A stretch of 64,000 nucleotides of DNA from Margaritispora aquatica. Lineage: Eukaryota > Ascomycota > Leotiomycetes > Helotiales > Discinellaceae. The notes under the pieces were generated by a model. That model was not told where the DNA came from and made no database searches. It was given only the letters and a program-made list of their open reading frames with translations. Both the position numbers and the translations under genes were made by a program. Below, in pieces: positions 5,162 through 49,585 of the stretch (within the stretch, counting starts at the first letter, position 1; each line of letters opens with the position of its first letter). The DNA lies in contig VJWN01000014.1 of NCBI GenBank assembly GCA_007644065.1, positions 248,001 to 312,000 on the forward strand. The letters run 5' to 3'.

Positions 5162-6622
5162 CTAAAAGGTTTATTGTCGAGAAGAAACGATCAATTGGTA
5201 AGAAGGAGAGCAAAGACCGGCATTGAAGCAATGGTAACTAGGCTATTACTGTCGAATTAAGAGTGGGTAAAAATTAGTGCGTGGTGGGGTCGCGACAATA
5301 GGAAGCGATTGCGACTAGGCTAAGGTTAGGTAGAAATGCAAAATTAATGCTACTATTGTTGGAATTGACTAATCAATAGCCTCGCTTGAGTATAGAATCT
5401 CAGTTGTGAAATGCAGTTGCATGTGGCGAGACTTGTCAAATCCATACAATGCTCCTTTCTGTGAAAGCCTTGGAAGATTCTCCGCACAGGCGTAACAGGC
5501 GGGCACTGTCTCTGGTATTCCAAAAATTCTCGAAGAGGAATGATTATGTATTTAGATGATATAATGCTAAATTTCAAGATCTTGTCAGCATATGTATACT
5601 ACTATCGACCCGAATCCTTTTTCTTTGGAAGCTATGGCATGTCACAAGTCAGGAAAGCTAAAACCTTAAATCAAGTCTATATTTGCCAGCAATGATCTTG
5701 TGGGAAAGTCACCCTGCGTATATATACATAGAGCAAATTTTTTTAATCTATACCTGACCACTTACATATACAAACAATCGATTAGATAATGCTTGTCACA
5801 TTACGAAAGTCAATTAATCATTAGTAGAGTGACCTAATCCGATGCGAAGTTTAATCTACTCTCATGAATCATGATTTTGCTGGATACTATTGAATTTTTG
5901 AGCTTTTAGGGCGTCGTTTAACTTCCAAAAGCTACAACAAGATCATGGTTCTATTACTGCTTATCCAAACTCTTTTCGGTTTCGACTTTTGTTGCTTCTT
6001 GCGACGGCACTTTTTGTTTAACTGTCTTCGTCGCTTCGCAATGTAGGAGTAGGAGAGTTGATAGTTAAATGACGGCAAGATTCCATTGAATTCATACTCT
6101 TAGCTCTGTACTTTACATCTCTTTATAATATCAATTCTTAAGCATAATTTGTAAAATCGTATCAAAGCAATTTTCGTGAAGTTTGTGTTTAACATCAATC
6201 ATCACATCCACAAATGTAGCTACTTAAGTTCTTATGTTCGTTATTCCTTGTTATTCAGTCCTTACCACCTCTCTATACTCTTCGATATCCCACAAGGAGC
6301 TCAAGTGAAATGCTTAGCGATGAAAATTTTGAATAATCAAAATTCAGTGTGTCAAAGACTCCCGTCTGCTTCAATCAAACCCAAAAGAAGACAAAAGGAC
6401 GAAAGCCTCTTCTAATTATGTCCTTTTAAACCATATTGAGTCAATCTAACATATATATACGTTTAAGCAACCGAAAAAGTTCTCAATACACTTTAGTATC
6501 GTATGCCACATCCGCTTCCAATTTAGCTTCCTCAGTAGACTGAAATTAGATTAGATCGACCACTATCACAAATCCAAAGCCTGCTAGGTCATTGTTCATC
6601 AGAAACCAGAAAAGGAGCCAGT
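5162..6622. other. intergenic, AT-rich
   Basis: About 1.4 kb rich in AT with only short open frames lacking codon structure or splice-compatible extensions. No RNA gene seen. Confidence 0.5.
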
Positions 6623-7274
6623 ATGCAAGAATCCAAGAGCGTAAAGGGAAACCAGGGCATCTTTCTCTATCCCAATTTATTCCGTAAGTTGCCACCACAT
6701 CTCAACGTCTAATACCTCAATCTGACCGCACCTTTCAGCACCCCTCTACTTCGAGCAGCAAGCTCTCTCACACTCTCTGCCAGATTTATCTCTCAACCCA
6801 TGTTATAATTGGACTGAGGCGGAACTCCAAGTCTTCTCGCAACTCACCTCGCGGATCCCACCCACGCAGATCCTCGCTGCAATACACACCGCCATCAGCG
6901 GCGAAACACCCAAGACGATCGACTACGCGCTTCGAGTGCTAGAAAACGCCATCACTATTCTCGAAAACCTGGCTGCGACTGAGATATTTGCGAAGCTGTA
7001 CAAGGGCGATGACGCACAGAGAAAGGAGGCGTGGATGGGGATGGCGAGGGATATGGCACCTACTTTGGCGTTCATTGAGATTGGACGTGGTTCGTAATTT
7101 GTAGAGAGATGCTGTGAGTTTCGTTGATGTAGTGGTTTTTAAGGATGATTGCTGACTCGTTCTTGCGAGACAGCGCAGTTTCCAGCCATGGATGAGGGAT
7201 CTCGCGAGACATGGACGAACGCGATGTTCAACATGATCGAGGCGTCCCAGGCTTTGCAAAAAGCTGGAGCATAA
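6623..7274 (+). CDS. small conserved-looking protein of unknown function
   Basis: Three exons, 6623-6683, 6739-7089 and 7174-7274, close in frame to about 170 aa. The first intron (55 nt) has a clean GTAAGT donor and TTTCAG acceptor. The second has a weak donor (GTTCGT at 7090, or GTGGTT three bases earlier; both keep frame) and a GACAG acceptor. The protein is soluble and helical, with 'ELQVFSQLTSRIPPTQI' near the middle and a C-terminus ending 'EASQALQKAGA'. I recognise no family. Codon use and the two frame-preserving introns support a real gene. Confidence 0.65.
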
Positions 7275-7776
7275 AACCAGTCTTCGCCGATGCAGCAATA
7301 TTATCCTGATATCTAGGTTGTTCTCCTAGATATCCTGATTTTATAATCTTTCACCTACGTACTCGGATCTACCCCTGAATGTTTCGCGTAGCTAAACGAT
7401 CCCAATCAGTGATTGCCAAGTCACCAGCTTCTCTATCCTTTCGCAATCAGCGGATCTTAAAATGAGATGTATGTACCACAACGAGATAAACTTGGTGACA
7501 GTATGTCCTCGATTTTATCTATACAGCCCCACTGCCTACATTTACATTTTTATAACACGCCGAGCTAATAAAAATCCTACGCATCGAATACACACCCAAA
7601 AATCCAACTCGCCTGGCGAGCAAATCAGAAAAAATCAGTCATAATACTAACATACCCAACCCAAGCATCATCATATGTCATAATAAAAGATATTAGGCGT
7701 TTCTCCTTCGTAGTTCTACAACTTCACATTCCGGAACTCGCCCACGCCTTCAGACTTTCCCCGGTCGTACAGCTAT
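7275..7776. other. intergenic between convergent genes
   Basis: Holds a short direct/inverted repeat of the block 'TATCCTGAT' / 'ATCTAGG' near 7300-7345. No gene seen. Confidence 0.5.
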
Positions 7777-31654: not shown

Positions 31655-31660
31655 AAAAAA
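31655..31660 (-). terminator. Pol III-type T-run after tRNA-Trp
   Basis: Six T residues on the minus strand, 24 nt beyond the last tRNA base, fitting RNA polymerase III termination. Confidence 0.6.
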
Positions 31661-31684: not shown

Positions 31685-31809
31685 TGAACCACACCCGACT
31701 GCCATTTCTGTTAGAACTATGTTTAGGTTCAATATGGAATGATCAACTTACTTTGAACGGATAGCCTTCCGCTCTGGAGGCGGACGCGCTACCGTTGCGC
31801 CAGCGGTCC
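31685..31809 (-). tRNA. tRNA-Trp (anticodon CCA) interrupted in the T-loop by an mRNA-type intron
   Basis: On the minus strand: acceptor GGACCGC, TG, D-stem GCGC/GCGC with loop AACGGTA, anticodon stem TCCGC/GCGGA with loop CTCCAGA (anticodon CCA at 31777-31775), variable AGGCT, T-stem ATCCG then T-loop TTCAAA. The loop is broken by 53 nt (31751-31699) and resumes with T, T-stem CGGGT, acceptor GTGGTTC and discriminator A. All five T-stem and seven acceptor pairs form (with G.T wobbles at 2-71, 6-67 and 50-64). Without the insert the tRNA is 72 nt with a 7-nt T-loop TTCAAAT, the normal size for eukaryotic tRNA-Trp. The A box (TGGCGCAACGG) is intact; the B box is split after GTTCAAA. Confidence 0.87.
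31699..31751 (-). other. spliceosomal-type intron inside tRNA-Trp
   Basis: 53 nt: donor GTAAGT, branch-site match TTCTAAC whose A lies 12 nt before the end, acceptor GGCAG. Size and all three signals match the protein-coding introns in this window. It sits between positions 59 and 60 of the tRNA, where no standard tRNA intron occurs. Confidence 0.8.
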
Positions 31810-36075: not shown

Positions 36076-39000
36076 CTACCTCCCCCCACCACCAGCAATA
36101 ATCGCCTCCAACTTCTCCTTCTCGCCACTCTCGCCCACCATACTCCTAAACACACCCTCCGCATTCTCATACAACTCTTTCGGCGTCCCAAACTCCACGA
36201 CCTTGCCTTCGCCCAACACGAGAATCTTGTCGAAATCCGCAATGGTGCTCAATCTGTGCGCAATCACAATTAAAGTGCTGTCGTTAAACTCCTCTCTAAT
36301 GCTGCGCTGGATCAGAGTATCGGTCGCCATGTCAACGGCGGATGTAGCCTCATCGAGAACCATGATCTTAGGCCGCGAGACGATGGCACGGGCTAAGCAG
36401 AGGAGTTGGCGCTGTCCTTGTGAGAGGTTCAGGCCGCCTTCTGAGATGGGGGACAAGAGCGAGGTGAAGGGGTTCTTGTTGAGATTCTTGTAGATCTCGG
36501 CTGTCGCTGTTGGCGAACTAGTGTCGGAGGAAGATGATGGGATGAGAGGTGTCGCGGATCCAGAGGCATGAGCGCTGATCACGGCGCTTTCAGCTTCAGA
36601 GATGAGATGCACGCGGTGCAGAGCGTCGCGGAGGGCATTGTCATCGTGATCATCGAACGCATCGAGGTTGCTGCGAACAGTGCCAGAGAAGAGCACCGGA
36701 TCCTGCGGGATGATAGCGAGTCTTGAGCGGAGGGCTTGCAGTTTGATCTTAGAAATGTCCAGGCCGTCAATGTGGATGCTTCCTTGTTGAGCCTCGAGGA
36801 AGCGGAAAAGTGCCAGTGTGAGGGAAGACTTTCCTGCTCCTGTGCGGCCCACAACACCGATGCGTTCGTTGCGGGCGACAGAGAAGGTGAGGCCTTTGAG
36901 AACGGGGGGGAGGTCGGGTGCATAGGAGACAACGAGATTTTCTACCTCCAGACGACCTTCAGAAGGCCAATGAGCTGGTGGGTCGGCTCCGTCCAAAGAC
37001 TCAGTGGGCAGGTTCGAGTATTCGATGATTCGCTCGGCGGCATTCATATCCAATTCTAGGTTAGTGTAATGGCGGATCGTCCAAATGACGACTTGGCCGT
37101 ACTCGAGTGCGAAGGAGAGAGCGAATCCTGCTAGTGAAGCGTCGATGTCTCGGATTAAGAGGATCATGCTTGCGACAACGGTGGCGAAGAAGCCTCCTAC
37201 GAGGGACATTCTCCAACCCATCCAGCGATTGAATGCCCAGAGATGCCAGTAAGAAGTGCTATAGTCGTCGATGCGGGCGAACATGCGAGCAATATACACT
37301 TCTTGCTTGTCGAAGGCACGGATTGTGCCGACGCCTGTAAGGGCCGATCCGAATGTCTCGAATATTGGGGATTTAGCATTTGATTCTATTCGCTTGACTT
37401 CTCGTCCACCGGACATGTAGAGACGACCAATTTGGACGCAGATGATTAGGAGGGACATCGAGAGAACAATCACATATGGCGATACGAAAGCACTGTGATG
37501 TTAGCTTTGAATTTCAAGGGATTGGGTAGGCTTACCCGGCAATGATAACACCAATCAATCGGAACAAGTTGTTGGCACCAAATGAAATGTCTGATGAAAG
37601 TCTAGCGTCAACAACGTTGAAATCTGCGGTGAAGCGATTCAAGATTCTTCCCAATGGGACAGTATCCATCCATCGAAGTGGTGTCCGCAAGATAGTGAAG
37701 CATAGCTTGTCGAAAAGTTTTCTTGATGCTCTAATAGAACCTGTGAAGATGTAGAAATAACGAGCTGTGCCAACAAGAACACCACAAACCGAGAATAAGA
37801 CGTAGATGCTAAGATAATATCGAAGGCTTTCTGGTGTCGATTCGGTAGTGTGGAATTGAGATGTAGTGTTGCTGGATACAGAGAAGCCGTGGATCTGATA
37901 CGAATAAGCAAATGCTTGTTTCATATCAACATGCTTTTCATCATGTCCAGTCCAGAGCCTCAGCCACCATGCACGACCAGTGGTCACGGCTTGCAAGAAA
38001 GCAAACCCTAGAACAGCAACGACCCAAAAAGGCCATCCACCACTCGCTTTCATATAATCCAAGTAGATGCCAGTCTTGACACGGCCTTGCTCCCGCTTTT
38101 CATCCTCGACGAATTTTTTGGGCACTTTTGAGTCGATTTTCTTCAATGGCTCAGTGACCTCTGCTTCAGCGTTCGAGGATTCTTCGGAATTGACAGCTGT
38201 TGGATCTTCATCTTCTTGGATCCCAGCTTCGTTCTCCTCGTGGCTAATGATCTCCTTCAACGTACCATCGGCTTCAAGCTCTTCGACCAATCCGGCATGC
38301 TCTACAGTTCCTTCACCGAGCTCAACCAGATATTTAGTTTTGGACTTGACAAGTGCAACATGGTGAGTGACCAAAATTCGGGTTCGTCCAACTCCAAGTT
38401 CGCCAGTCAAGCCTTTCTCGAAAATGAATCGTCCAACGTGCGCATCGACGGCGCTGAAAATATCATCAAGAACCAATGTGCCGGCACGAGAATATAAGGC
38501 GCGGGCAAATGTGACTCGCCATCTCTGGCCGCCACTGAGATTGATACCGTTAGCACCAATCTCGGTCTTCTCACCATCTGCAAGCATCTCTAGATCTTTC
38601 TTTAAAGCGCAAACCTCCAAGACTTTATTATAACGATACTCATCATCCGGAAGGCCGAACAGAATGTTGTCCTTGATGCTTGCATTCTCGATCCAAGGAA
38701 TTTGCGAAACGAAAGCAATGGCTGAGGGAATGATCCAATTGTCCTTGTTTGCCAAATGATCATGTCGATCTCGTGTCAGAGGTGCTCGTGGAACGTTGAC
38801 TTTTCCTTCCAAGACGTCCACCTCACCAAGAATGGCGGCCAACAGTAAACTCTTTCCAGTACCAGTCTTGCCACTGATTACAGAAAGTTCCTTCTCAGGG
38901 AAGGCGAGATTAACGTCTGAAAGAATATATCGCAAATTAGCATCTTCTCCTCCCTCTTCTTCCTCATCAGATGGCCATGCCACAGAAGCACCATCAAACG

Positions 39001-41033
39001 AAATGCTTGGGGCATCATTGGTATTCTTTGTAACTTCTGGCGCGGCAAGATATTTCTCGATACGCTCAATTGAGATCCACGCATCAATAAGATCGGTAGT
39101 GAGTTCTGGAATGACGGAAAGTGTAACCTCAAGACTGCCAAACACTCCAATGGCAGTGAAAGCAACGGATGGAGTCAGCTCGCCATACAGCAAAGCGTAA
39201 ACAGCAAGAGAAGTTGCCGCCAAGGCAACCGGGCTCATGATCCAACAGCTGCGAGTATTAGTAGGGCCATATCCGGACGAAAAAAGTGCACTTACAAGAG
39301 CAGGAAGGTGTCAGAGCTGTGGAAAGGTTAGCGTACATCATAGATTACAAAGACTTTTCACCTACACATAAACGTTCCATTGTTCAGCCAGCTCCCTTGA
39401 CCGAACCTTGCCGATCTTGGCATGCCAGTTGTTTTCCAAAGCAGAGAATTTTATTTGTCGAATGCCTAAAGATGTTAGCTTCTGTAATGCATTAACGTCA
39501 AATTTTCATACCTTGTAGAGCTTCAGTCACAACGCCCATTTTCGCATCTCGGACTTTCATCAGCCTATCCTGTGCATTGGAATAACGCTTGCTAAAGTGA
39601 ATATTTAGTGGAATAGTGAGAGACATAGCCAGGAAACCCGCAATTAGAGCTTTCCATCCAATGATGTTAAGCAAGAATGCAAAGGACACAATTAACTTGG
39701 CCAAACTACCGATAAAGTAATTGTTGAAAGAGGCAAAGTCAGAAACACGTTTGCAATCAACACCAATAAGATTCACAGTCGATTGCTTTCCCTTGGGCTC
39801 TGCATCCTCTTCTTCCTCAATCTCTGGCTTGGCCTCAGAGACAGCTTCAAGAGTCGCCTCAGAAATATCTTTGCCATCACTAGGAGCCTTCTTTTTCGAT
39901 TTCGAGGCTCCCTTGACATCCTTTCGCCTCATGGCTTTTTGGAAAATTTGAGCAGACAAATGTGCTCTGATAGGAATCGCAATCTTAGCCCATGAGACCC
40001 AGAAGAGCCAGGATTCAACCCAAGCAGCCCCGATGGTCGCGATGGTCAGACCGACAACCCATATCCACGCCTCGCCGCTCGCTGGTTGTCCTTTGACCCT
40101 AAGCTCGAGAATTTTTAGTATTTGATATGTCACAAATTGGGGAGCGAAATTGCCAAAAGCTTGCAATAGTGTCATGAACCATTGCAGGCAAAAGTTTTCT
40201 TTGTGACCAAGAAATAGCTCAATCCAAAGCTTCCTTGGGTGCTTTTCCAAAGCCCAGTTGTCGCTGATGTCTTTTGCTCGGGTTTCATGGTCCATCTTGG
40301 TCAAATCGGACAATTCCAAACGCTTCTTTTCGCGGGACAAAGCTAATAATGGGGTGACCCAGCCAAACGTGTATTTCGACATGGCTGAGACACTGTACAT
40401 CCCATCTACAGGATGCCCATCAAGAAACAATTCTGGCCTTCGAGGTAAAGATATACTTGCAACGGCTGTCAGTACCACGAGAGCCAATTGGGCTATCCGC
40501 AAGCCCAATTGAGCTGTACTCGACGATTCCTCGGTGCTCTGAAGCAGCCCATCTTGGTAAAGTAGCACAGCGAATAGAACTATCGAAGAAAGAGCGGCCT
40601 GAGTTCCGAGATTAAAGCTGTTTACCGAATCTTTGCTGAAAATGACGCTGGCAGTCTGAAAAAGGATGAGAAGCTACAATTTGTCAGCATATCGTTCTTG
40701 TCAGCGTAGATCATCACGTGTGCTTACCCATTGTATCGCATTCAACCAATTTTCAATCAACATCCCATTGCTGCCATTGAGAGTCTCAAGGACAGCGAGT
40801 GCCAGTGAGGTCGAGAATCCAGCAACTGCGAAGAAAGCTAACAGAGACTTTGGGATTTTCGCCGAAAAAGCTGCTACGGATTTCTCTGTCGCTTTTCCAT
40901 CCTCGTCCTCATAAACTCCAGATTTTGGTTTCGTGCTCCGTAAGTGGGATAGAATTGAAGGTATGCTGAATGCGAATACTCCAACTGAACCTGCAATACC
41001 AGAAGCCAGTGAGTTTGATACACTGTTCGCCAT
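36076..41033 (-). CDS. ABCC-family (MRP-like) full ABC transporter
   Basis: Six exons, 41033-40728, 40673-39512, 39465-39366, 39316-39296, 39248-37536 and 37492-36076, close in frame to 1572 aa. Order: N-terminal membrane segments, TMD1, NBD1, TMD2, NBD2. NBD1 has Walker A 'GKTGTGKS' near residue 655, signature 'NLSGGQRWRV' and Walker B 'TLVLDDIFSAVD'. NBD2 has Walker A 'GRTGAGKSSL', signature 'NLSQGQRQLLCLARA' and 'IMVLDEATSAVD'. The degenerate first catalytic position (D in place of E after Walker B of NBD1) is usual in ABCC proteins. An acidic insert lies between the NBDs and TMD2. Exon 4 is only 21 nt. It probably exports conjugates, metabolites or drugs at the vacuole or plasma membrane; the substrate is unknown. 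Confidence 0.95.
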
Positions 41034-43345
41034 GATTTCTTGGCGCGCGTGGTTTTCACAAGAAGTTCAGATGTCTTGCACCATCAATTGCACAATGGAC
41101 GAACTCTATATGCTAGATTTCAAATCGCCCGAGTCAGGTAGGAGGATTTGATGAGGACGCCTGTGGATGGTGGCGAGTGGAGGATGATGGCCTGGATGAT
41201 GGACAGGACAGGAGCACAAGAAGTGACTAACTATATTACCGAGCAAACGGCAAAAGGCTTGATTTGATGCTGTGGATTCTTGTGGTCGCCTTGAGTCACC
41301 GGCGACGGAAGTCAAATTAAAACTTCCTGCAGGTGGTGAGGGTGTCTCGACTACTAGTATGAGTACAAAGTAGTGCAGAAGTCGGGATACACAAGCCAAG
41401 GTGGTTGGTTGGAGAGAAAGATTGTCGGGAGGGTGGATAATAGGTGGTGGTGGTGGGGCGTGTCCGGGCGGCTTGCGGGCACTCGAACACTAGGCCAAAG
41501 AGAGGAGGTGAACGTTGGTGAGATCACCAATCTAGAAGAACGTCCGGGGCGACCTGATAGTGTGGGTATGTAGATATGTATAATTACGACGCAACATCTG
41601 CAACAGAGTATGGGGTTGGGGAGGGAAGGGTTGTTTATGAGCGAAAGAGAGTAAGTAGGTGGGAGGAAAGACGAAGTGGTAGAACAAATCCAAGTTAGCA
41701 AAACCCCAGTGTTTCGATTTGTGTCTAAGTCAACATAAAAGACAAGAATAAGGTGATACTATGGCCAAGAATGACTAAATGATGAGCCCAGAAGCGAGGC
41801 GAGAAGAAAGACTCACAAACCTTACCTTACTTATGGGGTGTTACTCATATTACAAGTAGCGAATGTGATTGTGTGTACCGTAGAATGAGATTCTGTCTGC
41901 CTGAATGCTTGCTTGGCGGACGTTTTTTTTTTTGATTTTTAATCCAAACGCCACCTTGCGTTACAATACGATGCTGACATGACCAGGCATGAAAAACACA
42001 TGGATAAACAGAGACGGGGTTGAGACTCATTGACACGCACCAGGAATTCATTGCTGTGAAGTATATCAAGTCTGAGACCGACACCGACACCGACTCTTTG
42101 TTGTGTTGAATGCCACTAAAAGGAACCAAATCTTATCAAAATCGGATTCTTTGGGCGGTGAAGCGATGGAAAGATGTCCCCCGCCGTTGGTGTAACCTTA
42201 GCGAGCGGATAACTTGATCGAGATTTCCGATAGAGGGGTTGATAGTCACATGATCCAGTAACACTCAGCATTGAACATAGAATAAGTTACAAAAGCCATC
42301 GTATTATAAGACCCAAAGAATTAAATATAACCACGTCCAATCTTAGGAGCAGACTGTTTTTAAATCTGAGTAGACCTTCCTTACTACCCTACTGTCACAT
42401 GACACAGATCCACTCATGAGATAATTATCTCCAGCTGGCGAATCCTCGGTCCTAGGCCCTTCGAAACTTAGCTGTCTATGAGAACTCGAAGAGTTCAAGT
42501 TCTAAACTTCATATATCTCAACTCATATCAATTCACCATGAGTTGGTTGTTTTCTTACTATCCTAAGCCAAAGGCACGTCGATTAGGCATAGTTTAAGGT
42601 TGATCAAACCTATTTTCAGCCAGCCACAGCTGAAAACTTGTGCGTTGATGTATCTCCACATGATGATGAAGACATTCCAGTTACCTCGATAAGCTACTCA
42701 ATTATCCTCAAACTGAAGCCTTGTTTACCTTTCAATCTACTTGGTCGTGTTCTATTCTGTGTACCTATTATTGTGCTTATGGTCTCTCTTTGTGATTCGA
42801 GGCTCTCCATTCCTCAGTTCTTTTCCTTATACTGCTGCCACCCACACAGAGCTCAAGTGAGCCAGCCACTATTGCAAGTCTCTCGGCATTTCCATGCACG
42901 TTCATCCCATCAGCGAATTGATTTCCCCCAAAAAATTAATGCTCACTCTTCATGCGTTGTCACCTGCTGTCACTTTGATGTTACCTGCAGATGGTGGCTT
43001 GAATTACGAGCTGAACAGCTGCTTTTTGTTGGAAGTCATGCTTAAGCGACCCCAGATCAGCCCTACCATCTCTTGACACTGACATATACCATCCAAAAGA
43101 GGCTGCGACACTCTTTAGCACTATCGATAACGTGGCTCTGGCTTGCATGACATTGTTTCTGACAGCCAGTGAGGTGGTGGTCAGCAAGTTTGGGGATTCT
43201 GCTGAAAGTTCGAGGTTTCCCGCTGTTTATAGTGAGTTATATTCTCTTCAAGATCAAGGTACATCCTTTCTTGATTCTTGCCTAGACAGCATTCTAGTCG
43301 CGGTGGACTCAAATTCTTGAGTTTCATGCGATACTTGTATCCAAG
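41034..43345. other. intergenic
   Basis: 2.3 kb between divergent genes. No supported gene; scattered short frames only. A T-run (10 T) near 41930. Confidence 0.5.
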
Positions 43346-46156: not shown

Positions 46157-46161
46157 AAAAA
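46157..46161 (-). terminator. Pol III-type T-run after tRNA-Ile
   Basis: Five T residues on the minus strand, 9 nt beyond the discriminator base. Confidence 0.65.
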
Positions 46162-46206
46162 CAATTCACATACTCCAGGTGAGGGTCGAACTCACGACTT
46201 TCGCAT

Positions 46207-46253
46207 TCCCAGTAGGTCATATCAACTCGAGGTGTTTTAAACCCTGGTGAGGA
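46207..46253 (-). other. canonical tRNA intron at position 37/38 of tRNA-Ile
   Basis: 47 nt placed directly after A37, the standard eukaryotic tRNA intron site cut by the tRNA splicing endonuclease. It lacks GT...AG ends, unlike the D-arm insert. Confidence 0.75.
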
Positions 46254-46277
46254 TATAAGAGCGACACGCTAACCACT

Positions 46278-46348
46278 CTGTTCGACGATTCGTTAGTTTA
46301 TGTTTTCGAGGAACGATACAGCAGAAATGAGAGGTAGGAGCCACGTAC
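46278..46348 (-). other. spliceosomal-type intron inside tRNA-Ile D arm
   Basis: 71 nt: donor GTACGT, branch match AAACTAACG whose A lies 15 nt before the end, acceptor AACAG. Sits between positions 13 and 14, right after the 5' strand of the D-stem. Confidence 0.8.
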
Positions 46349-46361
46349 GCGTCACTGAAGT

Positions 46362-46903
46362 TGTTTTGTAGTCGTTGTTGATGGTGTTTGAGGGAGGTGG
46401 TGGGTTTATATTGGAGGGAGGATGTGATCACGTGATATGGAATGGGGACAGGACGAGAAGGTCATTTGAATTCAAAGCCCCCTCATCATCTCAATGTTAG
46501 GCAGGATCTCTTATTGCGTTTAGACAAGCTTAATAATTCATTGTTTTTTTTTTCGGTTCCTATTCTTTATCATCATCACTTTCATCAAAGTTACAAGTCT
46601 CGGACACAGGCCGATTCGCCTCTCACTAAACTCTCACACCCCAGATCCGGCTCACCTCGCAAAGCACAAGCATACACACAATGATTCTCTGTCTTATCAC
46701 TCGGTAGATATACTATTACCAAGGATGGGGCCGGGCTAGAATGATTGATGTTGGAAGGCACTTGGGTGAAGTAATCAACATCGCGCAATGAAAGTAAACA
46801 TACTTGTTTGACAAGCAGGCTCATAACCCCAGTCGATAATTGGCATACCTTTTTTATCATCCACGCCAGCAAAGTAAAGCTACCCTCCCAAGTCACGCAG
46901 TCA
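46362..46903. other. intergenic
   Basis: Upstream of tRNA-Ile and downstream of the FluG-like gene. No gene seen; a T-run at about 46543-46552. Confidence 0.45.
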
Positions 46904-49585
46904 TCAATACCGCTCCATAATCCAGACCTTCCTTTCCCCCACCGACATAGTTGCATATAACTTCTTCTCCGCCTCCTTAATCCCCAAATACCTATCCACC
47001 ACCTCCCCACCAAGGACCTCCCTAAACACCTCATCTTGGTCCAAACACTTCAATGCCTCCGTCAAATCCTTGGGCAACATCTCCTTCACCCCCAACTCCT
47101 CCCTTTCTACTACAGTCAACAATCCCGGATCCTTCAAACAATCACCCAGTTTTAGCTTCTCCGCATCCCTCACACCCCTCGTACCAGCGCCCAGCAGCGC
47201 CGCAAGCGCCAGATAAACATTCGCCAACCCATCCATAACCTTGATCTCAAAATGTGACCCCTCGATCTTCCGCAGCGCCGTCTCCTTATTCTGCGTTCCC
47301 CACGAAACCCATCGTCCACCAGCCCAGCACCCATCAGCCATGCGATCATAACTCGTGGGATTCGAGTACGTGAACGCGATGATAGCTCTCAAGTGCTTCA
47401 ATATCCCCGCGTAAAAAGCCTCGTATACATCTTTCTCGTCTCCACCGGGCGAACAGATCGAGAGATGCACATGGCTTGCCGTGCCGGCCATCATGGAGAA
47501 GGGCTTTGGATGCAGCGTGGCACGCATGCCGTGCTTAGCTACGACGGAGGTGATAATCTCGCGTGTATGTAGCAAGGTGTCGGCGGCAATGAGGGGCGAG
47601 TAGGGAGGGAGGATGAACTCGTGCTGGCCCGAGCTACTCTCTGGGTGTATCATTTCGAGGTGGATAGAAGCTTTCTCAAGAGCGTCGTAGATCTCACTTA
47701 AGATGTCGAGGATCACCGGGTCATGGAGAGCGCGGGCGGCTGACCAAGAGTGCCCATCCGAGCTGGCGAGCGTGTCGAGGTGCCCGATTGGGGTACGGGA
47801 CATGAAGACGATTTCAATTTCGTAGCCGACGAGGAAGTCGAGGTTCTGTGCAGTGGCCGTCTGGAGCACACGTTGGAGCGTTGCGCGTGGGCACATAGCC
47901 ACGGGTGTCCCATCGTGGTTATGGAATGTGCCATACACGGAAGCGTAGCCTTCGGTTGGGCCAAGTCGGAGAGAGCTGAAGTCGGCGATGAGGTGGAAAT
48001 CGCCTGCTATGGAGACGTTGGGGATTATGGTGTCATTTTGGATGAGGCCGAGGCCGGCTTCTGTGACGCTGGCTTTCAAGGGGCCGGATTTGAGGAGTGT
48101 AAGGACGCGGGGGATGGGGATGATTCTGGTTCGGGGGGTGGATGTATGGTCTAGCCAGTTTAAGCGAAGGAATTTGGTTGTAGGATACTGAGAGAGGAAG
48201 TTGGTCATCGTTGAGAGATCTGAAGATTTAGGTAACAAGAGCTTAGCAGTGTAAGGGACTGAAAATGGCTTGAGTTTGAGATCCAGGTCGTAGAGAATGT
48301 TGGATGTGTTGAAGAAAATATCTTGTACGGCGTTGATGGCTTGAGATACTGACATGACGCCATCATTGACATACTCGGAAAAAACCTAGTCGCAGTCAGC
48401 AGGCATCAAAAACTCCCCTCTAGCTTTTAGCATACCTTCTCAAAAGCCTCCCTGACTTGAATGATGGCAAGCAGATATGTCTCTGGGAACCAGTGACCAT
48501 CTGTGCTCCACAATAGCTTTTCTGTAGGACAAAGTTCAAGAATCTCCCGGACAACATTCTCTTGTCCGTTTTTGCTGATGAATGGGAATACCTCACCGAT
48601 GTCTGCATACACATTCTCATATACACTTGCTAAATATCCAGCCTCCTTCGTCCAGGGATAACTGGCATGCAAGAGGACAATTGGTACAGTTGGGAATTTG
48701 CGGATGAAAGCTTGTAGGTGAGAAGGCGATGACTTAGTCAGTGTGATATCGTTGTCTCCGAGACCCACATGGAACTGAATCTATTTGAATGTTAGCATCG
48801 GTACAAATAAAAGCCGCGAACGTGATTGAGATTCATACCGGCTTTTTAGGAGAAGAACTCTTTGCAATGATGGTTGCTGCCCTGTTGACTAAGTATGCGT
48901 TCAACGGCAAACCATCGAGTCTCTTGAAGCTACGAATATCATCCGTTTTCAACTGCTCGATATAATCTAAAAACGAGTCCTCCACCTCCCTCGACGAAAG
49001 CACAGGCGGGATATCGAGTCCCGTCCTATAGCAAATAACAGATTTGAACCCCACAATATCATCATTTTTAATTGCATCAGTCATCACAAGATCGAACGCC
49101 TCCTTCAAACTCCCAAATATTTCGTCCGATGGCAATTCAGGCGTGCGATACAGCTGATTGATAATCTCCTCCGCGACCTTCTCAATCCTCACAATTCGCT
49201 TACACTCACTCCTACACAACTTATCATGCCAAGTGTAGTCATACACCTCGTCCATCCCATCCAATCCATCATCAACGAGAACTGTCTCGATCTGCTCGAA
49301 GCACCGCTTTTCCCATGCGTGATGCGGCTTGGCTTGCTGGGTGTCGATGGCTTTTAGGACGTCGTCCCAGGTTGGTGGACAATTCAGGATGGTGGAAAGT
49401 TGCTTGACGGCTCGGATATGTGAAAGCGTTGAGGGTGTATGGCGCATGGCATTGCCTTGAGCTTCAGTCGTGATGGCCAGGAGGGGGTATTTACCCCGCG
49501 CTGAGGGGATGAGGAGGGGGTGTGCATGGTTGTCAATGATAGGGCATGTTCTGATTGCTTCGATGAGGGGTGTGAGATCCTCCAT
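46904..49585 (-). CDS. fluG: FluG-like fusion: amidohydrolase domain plus glutamine-synthetase-like domain
   Basis: Three exons, 49585-48839, 48780-48436 and 48385-46904, close in frame to 857 aa, matching the size of Aspergillus FluG. Start is the first ATG in frame (MEDLTPLIEA). Residues 1 to about 390 are an amidohydrolase-type TIM barrel: N-terminal metal motif 'IIDNHAHPLL', later 'FHVGLGDND', 'LLHASYPWTKEAGYLA' and 'LLWSTDGHWFPE'. Residues from about 420 are glutamine-synthetase-like: 'GYEIEIVF', 'GQHEFILPP', 'MAGTASHVHLSI' and a C-terminal 'SHFEIKVMDGLANVYLALAA'. FluG proteins are needed for the signal that starts conidiation in Aspergillus; other members degrade or ligate gamma-glutamyl compounds. 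The symbol reflects domain layout, not proven function. Confidence 0.9.

Follow-up and report, generated by a model that had tools for sequence, protein, structure and literature searches.

Textbooks describe the splicing of tRNA by an endonuclease and a ligase as a process apart from the spliceosome. The nearest precedent for an mRNA-type intron in a tRNA gene is provided by the U6 snRNA genes of Schizosaccharomyces pombe and other fungi, which harbor spliceosomal introns. As in the genes described here, the intron then interrupts a small structured RNA made by RNA polymerase III (Pol III), but the host is U6 and not a tRNA, and the transcript is handled by one splicing system only. The two U6 genes that scored above the cut-off in our genome were matched end to end and showed no intron.

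The separation between endonuclease and ligase on the one hand and the spliceosome on the other is also maintained in the excerpted text of a 2026 review (PMC13149111). U6 introns are mentioned in the excerpts of PMC5832005, according to which no small structured RNA other than U3 and U6 was known at that time to be frequently interrupted. Fungal U3 snoRNA, likewise a small structured RNA, has genes with normal spliceosomal introns, which show GT-YAG borders, an RCTRAC branch site, a mean branch-acceptor distance of 15 nt and paralogs with and without the intron (same excerpts), but the host is a snoRNA and not a tRNA. The fungal consensus given there is RCTRAY and YAG with a branch distance of 6-36 nt.

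Canonical eukaryotic tRNA introns lie beside the anticodon at position 37/38, have no GT-AG signals and are removed by the tRNA splicing endonuclease. The inserts described here lie elsewhere, but a canonical intron may occur in the same gene. Inserts in the D or T arm that require removal are also found in archaea, Cyanidioschyzon merolae and nucleomorphs. For the first two, cutting depends on a bulge-helix-bulge motif (PMC4090602, in excerpt), which was not formed here in the register tested. The same excerpts call the mechanism in nucleomorphs unknown, and the eukaryotic non-canonical tRNA introns that they name (Yoshihisa 2014) are those of nucleomorphs and of a red alga. The introner-like elements of fungi (PMC4457414) are likewise spliceosomal introns gained at new positions; near-identical copies in many genes are their mark. 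In the available part of PMC8450103, the non-canonical intron search of tRNAscan-SE 2.0 is described for archaea. A literature search by title and beginning of the abstract, without preprints and most subscription journals, returned no report of spliceosomal introns in nuclear tRNA genes. Spliceosomal introns in a Pol III RNA are already known from U6; what would be new, if our reading holds, is the tRNA as host and the fact that whole isoacceptors depend on the spliceosome.

A D-arm insert and a 37/38 intron in tRNA-Ile(UAU)

We analyzed a stretch of 64,000 nt from Margaritispora aquatica (contig C6:248001-312000; the genome comprises 42.4 Mb in 49 contigs), which is called the window in the following. 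Its tRNA-Ile(UAU) gene is interrupted in the D arm and its tRNA-Trp gene in the T loop (Table 1). Judged from the sequence, the D-arm insert is, with a probability of about 0.9, a U2-type spliceosomal intron in a nuclear tRNA-Ile(UAU) gene transcribed by Pol III, and this gene is one of at least 16 of its kind.

Table 1. Positions of the two interrupted tRNA genes of the window and of their flanking signals.
Feature	Position	Strand	Basis
tRNA-Ile(UAU) exon 1, positions 1-13, ACTTCAGTGACGC	46349..46361	(-)	acceptor and D-stem pairing
71-nt spliceosomal-type intron of tRNA-Ile(UAU), D arm, 13/14; GTACGT ... ACTAAC ... CAG	46278..46348	(-)	sequence reading
tRNA-Ile(UAU) exon 2, 24 nt, positions 14-37, anticodon TAT	46254..46277	(-)	sequence reading
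47-nt intron of tRNA-Ile(UAU), canonical 37/38; tRNA endonuclease type by position	46207..46253	(-)	position
tRNA-Ile(UAU) exon 3, 36 nt, discriminator A73, complete B box GTTCGACCC	46171..46206	(-)	sequence reading
TATAAA, 49 nt upstream of the tRNA-Ile(UAU) 5' end	46405..46410	(-)	sequence reading
T5 run, Pol III-type terminator of tRNA-Ile(UAU)	46157..46161	(-)	sequence reading
tRNA-Trp(CCA) exon 1, 58 nt, through position 59; 100% identity with the intronless tRNA-Trp on C11	31752..31809	(-)	
53-nt spliceosomal-type intron, tRNA-Trp T loop, 59/60; GTAAGT ... TCTAAC ... CAG	31699..31751	(-)	motif scan
tRNA-Trp exon 2, TCGGGTGTGGTTCA	31685..31698	(-)	sequence reading
T6 run, Pol III-type terminator of tRNA-Trp	31655..31660	(-)	sequence reading

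The preliminary description of this DNA had reported the acceptor pairing ACTTCAG/CTGGAGT, the D-stem pairing ACGC/GCGT and the 71-nt insert, and a check of the sequence confirmed these details. The insert starts with GTACGT, contains AAACTAACG, ends with AACAG and is directly followed by AGTGGTTAGCGT; its branch A lies 15 nt from the intron end. The three U2-type marks at the exact borders agree with the proposed spliceosomal type and suggest that the insert is spliced. As to the structure of the gene, the D-arm intron stood, but the description was silent on the second, ordinary intron. Only this second intron lies where introns of the endonuclease type are expected (37/38); the insert at 13/14 does not.

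When both introns were excised, ARAGORN recognized a tRNA-Ile with anticodon tat. In the spliced molecule, 20 of 21 cloverleaf pairs are standard, T31-T39 being the exception, and a cloverleaf with the correct anticodon is what is expected of a functional tRNA. After excision of the D-arm intron alone, ARAGORN placed a 47-nt intron nearby (35,47) and gave a wrong isotype name. The unspliced gene was not recognized as a tRNA by ARAGORN, either without introns or with introns of up to 60 nt on the forward strand.

An uninterrupted second gene for tRNA-Ile(UAU), the existence of which, together with a lack of spliced transcript, had been named as an argument against the D-arm intron, was not found when the 42.4-Mb genome was searched with the spliced tRNA. 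The single further gene (copy B, C12:1106725 onward) has an insert of 65 nt (GTAAGT...GCTAAC...TTTAG) at exactly the same 13/14 point, with the same marks but a different body, and an intron of its own at 37/38 (42 nt). Removal of both introns from copy B resulted in 20 of 21 cloverleaf pairs and the anticodon TAT. The mature sequences of both genes are identical at 69 of 72 positions (70 of 73 including A73). Two of the three differences swap C-G and T-G in a stem, so that the pair is kept, and one lies in the T loop. Global alignment of the two insert bodies gave a score of 34.5 versus a shuffle mean of 25.0, and 1 of 500 shuffles reached this score. The shared signals add to it, and the two bodies appear to be weakly alike at most.

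Interrupted tRNA genes in the genome

Inserts of this type were present in 16 of the 69 nuclear tRNA genes that we read, which is no census, since the searches were seeded with known paralogs. The interrupted genes are spread over 13 contigs and represent eight isoacceptors, namely Ile(UAU), Arg(ACG), Gln(UUG), Trp, Lys(CUU), Lys(UUU), Ser(AGA) and elongator Met, with seven insert positions (6/7, 13/14, 26/27, 53/54, 55/56, 59/60 and 60/61). The other 53 nuclear tRNA genes had no such insert, and three further full-length matches were left out of the count. Genes were located by tRNA exon matches, except for the tRNA-Trp gene of the window (31809-31685, minus strand), which was located by a motif scan.

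All six sub-cut-off matches of an Rfam tRNA search are interrupted genes: four for Arg(ACG) at 53/54, one for Lys(UUU) at 60/61 and one for Gln(UUG) at 6/7, that is, inside the acceptor stem. Queries with 25 tRNAs of the genome raised the number of interrupted genes to two for Trp (the second on C9), five for Arg(ACG) and two for Gln(UUG), and they revealed Ser(AGA) at 55/56, elongator Met at 26/27 and a pair of Lys(CUU) genes at 53/54. A second intron at 37/38 accompanies the spliceosomal-type insert in Ile(UAU), Gln(UUG), Ser(AGA), Lys(CUU) and elongator Met. Among the genes read, none was seen that is interrupted away from the anticodon loop and yet lacks splice signals.

Insert-free paralogs fixed the borders of the inserts for Trp, Lys(CUU) and Ser(AGA). 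The spliced Trp gene of the window is identical to the insert-free Trp gene on C11 (L060) at 72 of 72 positions, and this pair of genes may represent intron gain or loss caught in progress. For Lys(CUU), the insert-free genes L064, L065, L067 and L072 were compared to the interrupted genes L150 and L151, and for Ser(AGA), L061, L130 and L133 were compared to L145 (C47:2284011, plus strand), in which one T-stem pair is changed on both sides. The elongator Met genes L062 and L152 (interrupted) are of equal length but differ in the anticodon stem. The borders in Gln(UUG) (L114 and L142) were taken from the insert-free Gln(CUG) gene L134.

An artefact of assembly or contamination has a negligible probability in view of this distribution, as the pattern recurs on 13 contigs, the insert bodies differ from one another, the borders are precise, and both window genes tested have fungal relatives. 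The 4-aminobutyrate aminotransferase of the window shows 89% identity to Delphinella and 87% to Claussenomyces. For the fluG-type glutamine synthetase, the best named relatives, presumably Leotiomycetes, show 59% identity or less. The two proteins point to filamentous ascomycetes and do not settle the class. The fluG-type glutamine synthetase domain is encoded next to tRNA-Ile(UAU), in an ORF of 493 aa (46907-48385, minus strand), and many of the named relatives add an amidohydrolase-type domain (PF04909).

If the interrupted copies were dead pseudogenes, the inserts would never be removed. Odd D- or T-arm insertions in single eukaryotic tRNA copies are supposed pseudogenes according to the excerpted review (PMC4090602), and uninterrupted copies are indeed available for Trp, Lys, Ser and elongator Met. 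However, searches with the genome's own tRNAs revealed no uninterrupted gene for Arg(ACG) or Gln(UUG), as was also the case for Ile(UAU), although ATA is used: in five long, uncurated ORFs of the window it makes up 14 of the 164 Ile codons. One uninterrupted gene each is present for Arg(CCG) and Gln(CUG). Moreover, the exons are conserved while the insert bodies diverge, the borders are precise, and the downstream T runs are kept in all 16 genes. We regard loss of function as very unlikely and favor spliceosomal introns in active genes.

The nuclear matches of the Rfam tRNA search contained no Phe, Tyr, Cys, Asp, Glu, Pro, Val or Gly(GCC) gene. The idea that these genes are interrupted as well was dropped because the list was incomplete: uninterrupted Gly(GCC) and other genes were found later. 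Two T-arm pattern searches revealed no interrupted gene, one of them returning two uninterrupted Gly genes and the other nothing. A T-loop pattern, which was too strict for the window's own Trp, gave two matches, neither of them a tRNA. A D-loop pattern gave 4 matches versus 10 for the reversed control; it did not fit AGTGG loops and hence not the Ile genes. A B-box pattern was no commoner than its control (147 versus 185). Patterns for the D-arm junction, the stretch from D loop to anticodon and the T arm revealed no fungal relative in viral and genome contigs, and none of the 32 loci with the D-arm junction pattern in contig collections had GAGTGGTTAG nearby downstream. One match in these contigs, L086, proved to be a cluster of tRNA genes on an IMG/VR contig, and L087 looks alike by eye.

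Some other loci were unusual. L069 (C48:685604-685748, plus strand) and L081 (C12:788952-789105, plus strand) are tRNA genes with the unusual body GGAGA..GTAGCTTAG, in which ARAGORN placed inserts of 72 and 81 nt, respectively, in the anticodon loop. L085 (C23:1168604-1168738, minus strand) has a 60-nt insert at the canonical position, with TACTAAC inside but no clear GT...AG borders; ARAGORN named it Ser(AGA), yet it has no long variable arm. Contig C38 (42,582 bases) is rich in tRNA matches. The same run of matches occurs close to either end (5297-7429 and 38998-41129), which would fit a circle assembled with overlap. It is probably mitochondrial.

Splice signals and insert bodies

All 16 inserts start with GT(A/G)NG(T/C), end with (C/T)AG and have a CTRA-type branch site 10-15 nt from the insert end. 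The branch sequence is CTAAC in 13 inserts and CTGAT, CTAAA or CTAAT in the others. CTRAY is fitted by 15 of 16 branch sites, Arg_C14 with CTAAA being the exception, and the distances lie inside the fungal range of 6-36 nt excerpted from PMC5832005. The agreement of the inserts with the fungal consensus in this source supports the spliceosomal reading. Insert lengths are 48-71 nt with a mean of 55.9 nt (n = 16). Among 18 motif-defined intron candidates of the window, two of which are the tRNA introns, 11 measure 46-60 nt, and with a shuffle mean of 10.3 matches (maximum 20) this is a weak length reference.

We also considered cutting by the tRNA splicing endonuclease at a bulge-helix-bulge, in which case the inserts would be non-canonical introns like those of archaea and a red alga. 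Introns in the D and T arms are known from nucleomorphs and Cyanidioschyzon, in the latter with a bulge-helix-bulge (PMC4090602, in excerpt). However, in the one register tested none of the 16 junctions formed the 4-bp central helix of this motif (0-2 of the 4 pairs), and unspliced Ile(UAU) RNA folded no better than shuffles (z = -0.21). A bulge-helix-bulge would also not demand GTRNGY, CTRA at 10-15 nt and YAG, which occur in all 16 inserts. Cutting by this route appears extremely unlikely, and the signals argue for the spliceosome.

Every GT(A/G)NG...(C/T)TRA(C/T)...(A/C/T)AG of the window was excised and the product was scanned with ARAGORN. Among 649 candidates, a tRNA across the junction appeared at two places, tRNA-Ile(UAU) and tRNA-Trp, and at no place in each of 20 Markov-shuffled windows. 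Only inserts with a splice-like motif were tried, so the presence of the motif is partly built in; the borders from paralogs are an independent check. Over the whole set, ARAGORN called a tRNA across the junction in all 16 spliced genes, with the start within one base of the expected end. Without splicing and with introns of up to 60 nt allowed, no tRNA was called on that strand for 14 of the 16 genes, and Trp on C6 and Arg on C46 were called with wrong ends or a false intron. The unspliced Trp of the window was read as an uninterrupted 76-nt gene with its end inside the insert, and the unspliced elongator Met gene L152 was falsely called as Val when introns of up to 140 nt were allowed. Removal of the first intron only resulted in wrong isotype names for 4 of the 16 (both Ile genes, Ser and elongator Met), because the second intron at 37/38 was misplaced. 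The identities of Ser(AGA) and elongator Met were assigned by comparison with uninterrupted paralogs.

G makes up 10% of the insert body (13 inserts compared). The first exon of Arg(ACG), with 52 nt, is identical in four genes and 98% identical in the fifth. All five Arg(ACG) inserts (L115, L116, L117, L118 and L129) share GTAAGCTT, and the bodies differ afterwards. This shared stretch runs two bases past the usual 5' splice site and may reflect a gene-conversion edge or an extended constraint. The Lys(CUU) gene L150, interrupted at the same 53/54 site, has GTAAGCTC.

Introner-like origin was tested by pairwise comparison of 13 inserts. The highest score of any pair was 22, short of the 22.9 that marks the 99.9% point of shuffled pairs. 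Middling scores were slightly in excess: the 95% point was exceeded by at least 10 of 78 pairs versus about 4 expected, with the branch site within the compared stretch. An introner-like family was rejected, as no near-identical bodies were present among the 13 of 16 inserts compared.

Promoters, terminators and the predicted order of maturation

A run of at least five T started within 45 nt downstream of all 16 interrupted genes, of 30 of 40 uninterrupted genes and in 3.7% of random 45-mers. A T5 run inside the transcript was present in none of the 16 interrupted genes versus 11.4% of random 130-mers. TATA/CATAAA at -60 to -31 was found in 11 of the 16 interrupted genes, which leaves five without it, in 22 of the 40 uninterrupted genes and in 8.2% of random 30-mers of the window.

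The preliminary description had also stated that the insert splits the internal A box. This is right for Ile(UAU), where the box is not contiguous but split between positions 13 and 14; the other 14 inserts, by position, lie outside the box, at 6/7 or beyond 26. Copy B of Ile(UAU) showed no visible rebuilding of its split A box and, by the pattern used, no upstream TATA. Of the 16 unspliced genes, 12 have a complete B box (GTTCRANNC); when Ile is excluded, the box is intact or rebuilt via the AG of the 3' splice site in 10 of 14, and the inserts at 53/54 rebuild it as AG/TTCGA. In both Trp genes and in Lys(UUU) just its last base does not fit, and it is broken in Ser(AGA). The GTTCRA core is found in all 16 unspliced genes, in Ser within the insert. 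The insert of this Ser(AGA) gene (L145), which breaks the B box, carries its own GTTCAA, possibly as a substitute B-box core.

Transcription by RNA polymerase II, e.g., as part of longer host RNAs, with mRNA-like splicing before the tRNA is processed out, would account for splicing-competent substrates and for the tolerance of broken internal boxes. We consider this unlikely in view of the T runs, which start no more than 36 nt downstream of all 16 genes and never lie inside, the placement of TATA as in uninterrupted tRNA genes, and the GTTCRA core kept in every unspliced gene. The anatomy of the genes points to transcription by Pol III.

Pol III would transcribe the whole gene, aided by the internal boxes and by the upstream TATA where present, and would stop at the downstream T run. 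The spliceosome is then predicted to remove the GT...CTAAC...AG intron with the 5' leader and the 3' trailer still attached. We infer that this step precedes the trimming of the ends, because terminal exons of only 6-14 nt would otherwise occur. The acceptor, D or T arm would fold only after the spliceosomal step, and RNase P, RNase Z and the tRNA splicing endonuclease would act then; the endonuclease measures from the tRNA body and would hence need the folded body. Where present, the 37/38 intron would be removed afterwards by endonuclease and ligase. We predict, in other words, that the spliceosome accepts short transcripts of Pol III although their exons are tiny.

The spliceosome is likely to be an obligatory enzyme of tRNA maturation in M. 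aquatica, needed by every Ile(UAU), Arg(ACG) and Gln(UUG) gene found. Two unrelated splicing machines would act in turn on the Ile and Gln pre-tRNAs, and the seven insert positions would stand for at least as many entries of spliceosomal introns into nuclear tRNA genes, mostly at sites where the internal promoter is spared or rebuilt.

Annotation of eukaryotic tRNA genes can miss such genes, as most of the unspliced genes were invisible to ARAGORN, and the tRNA sets of related fungi may deserve re-examination. The use of Pol III transcripts with very short exons by the spliceosome, the action of TFIIIC on a split A box, and the way in which new introns settle would become testable. If our reading is true, the separation between tRNA splicing by endonuclease and ligase and the spliceosome would not be universal, and the spliceosome would be needed to translate the isoleucine codon AUA, the arginine codons CGU, CGC and CGA, and the glutamine codon CAA.
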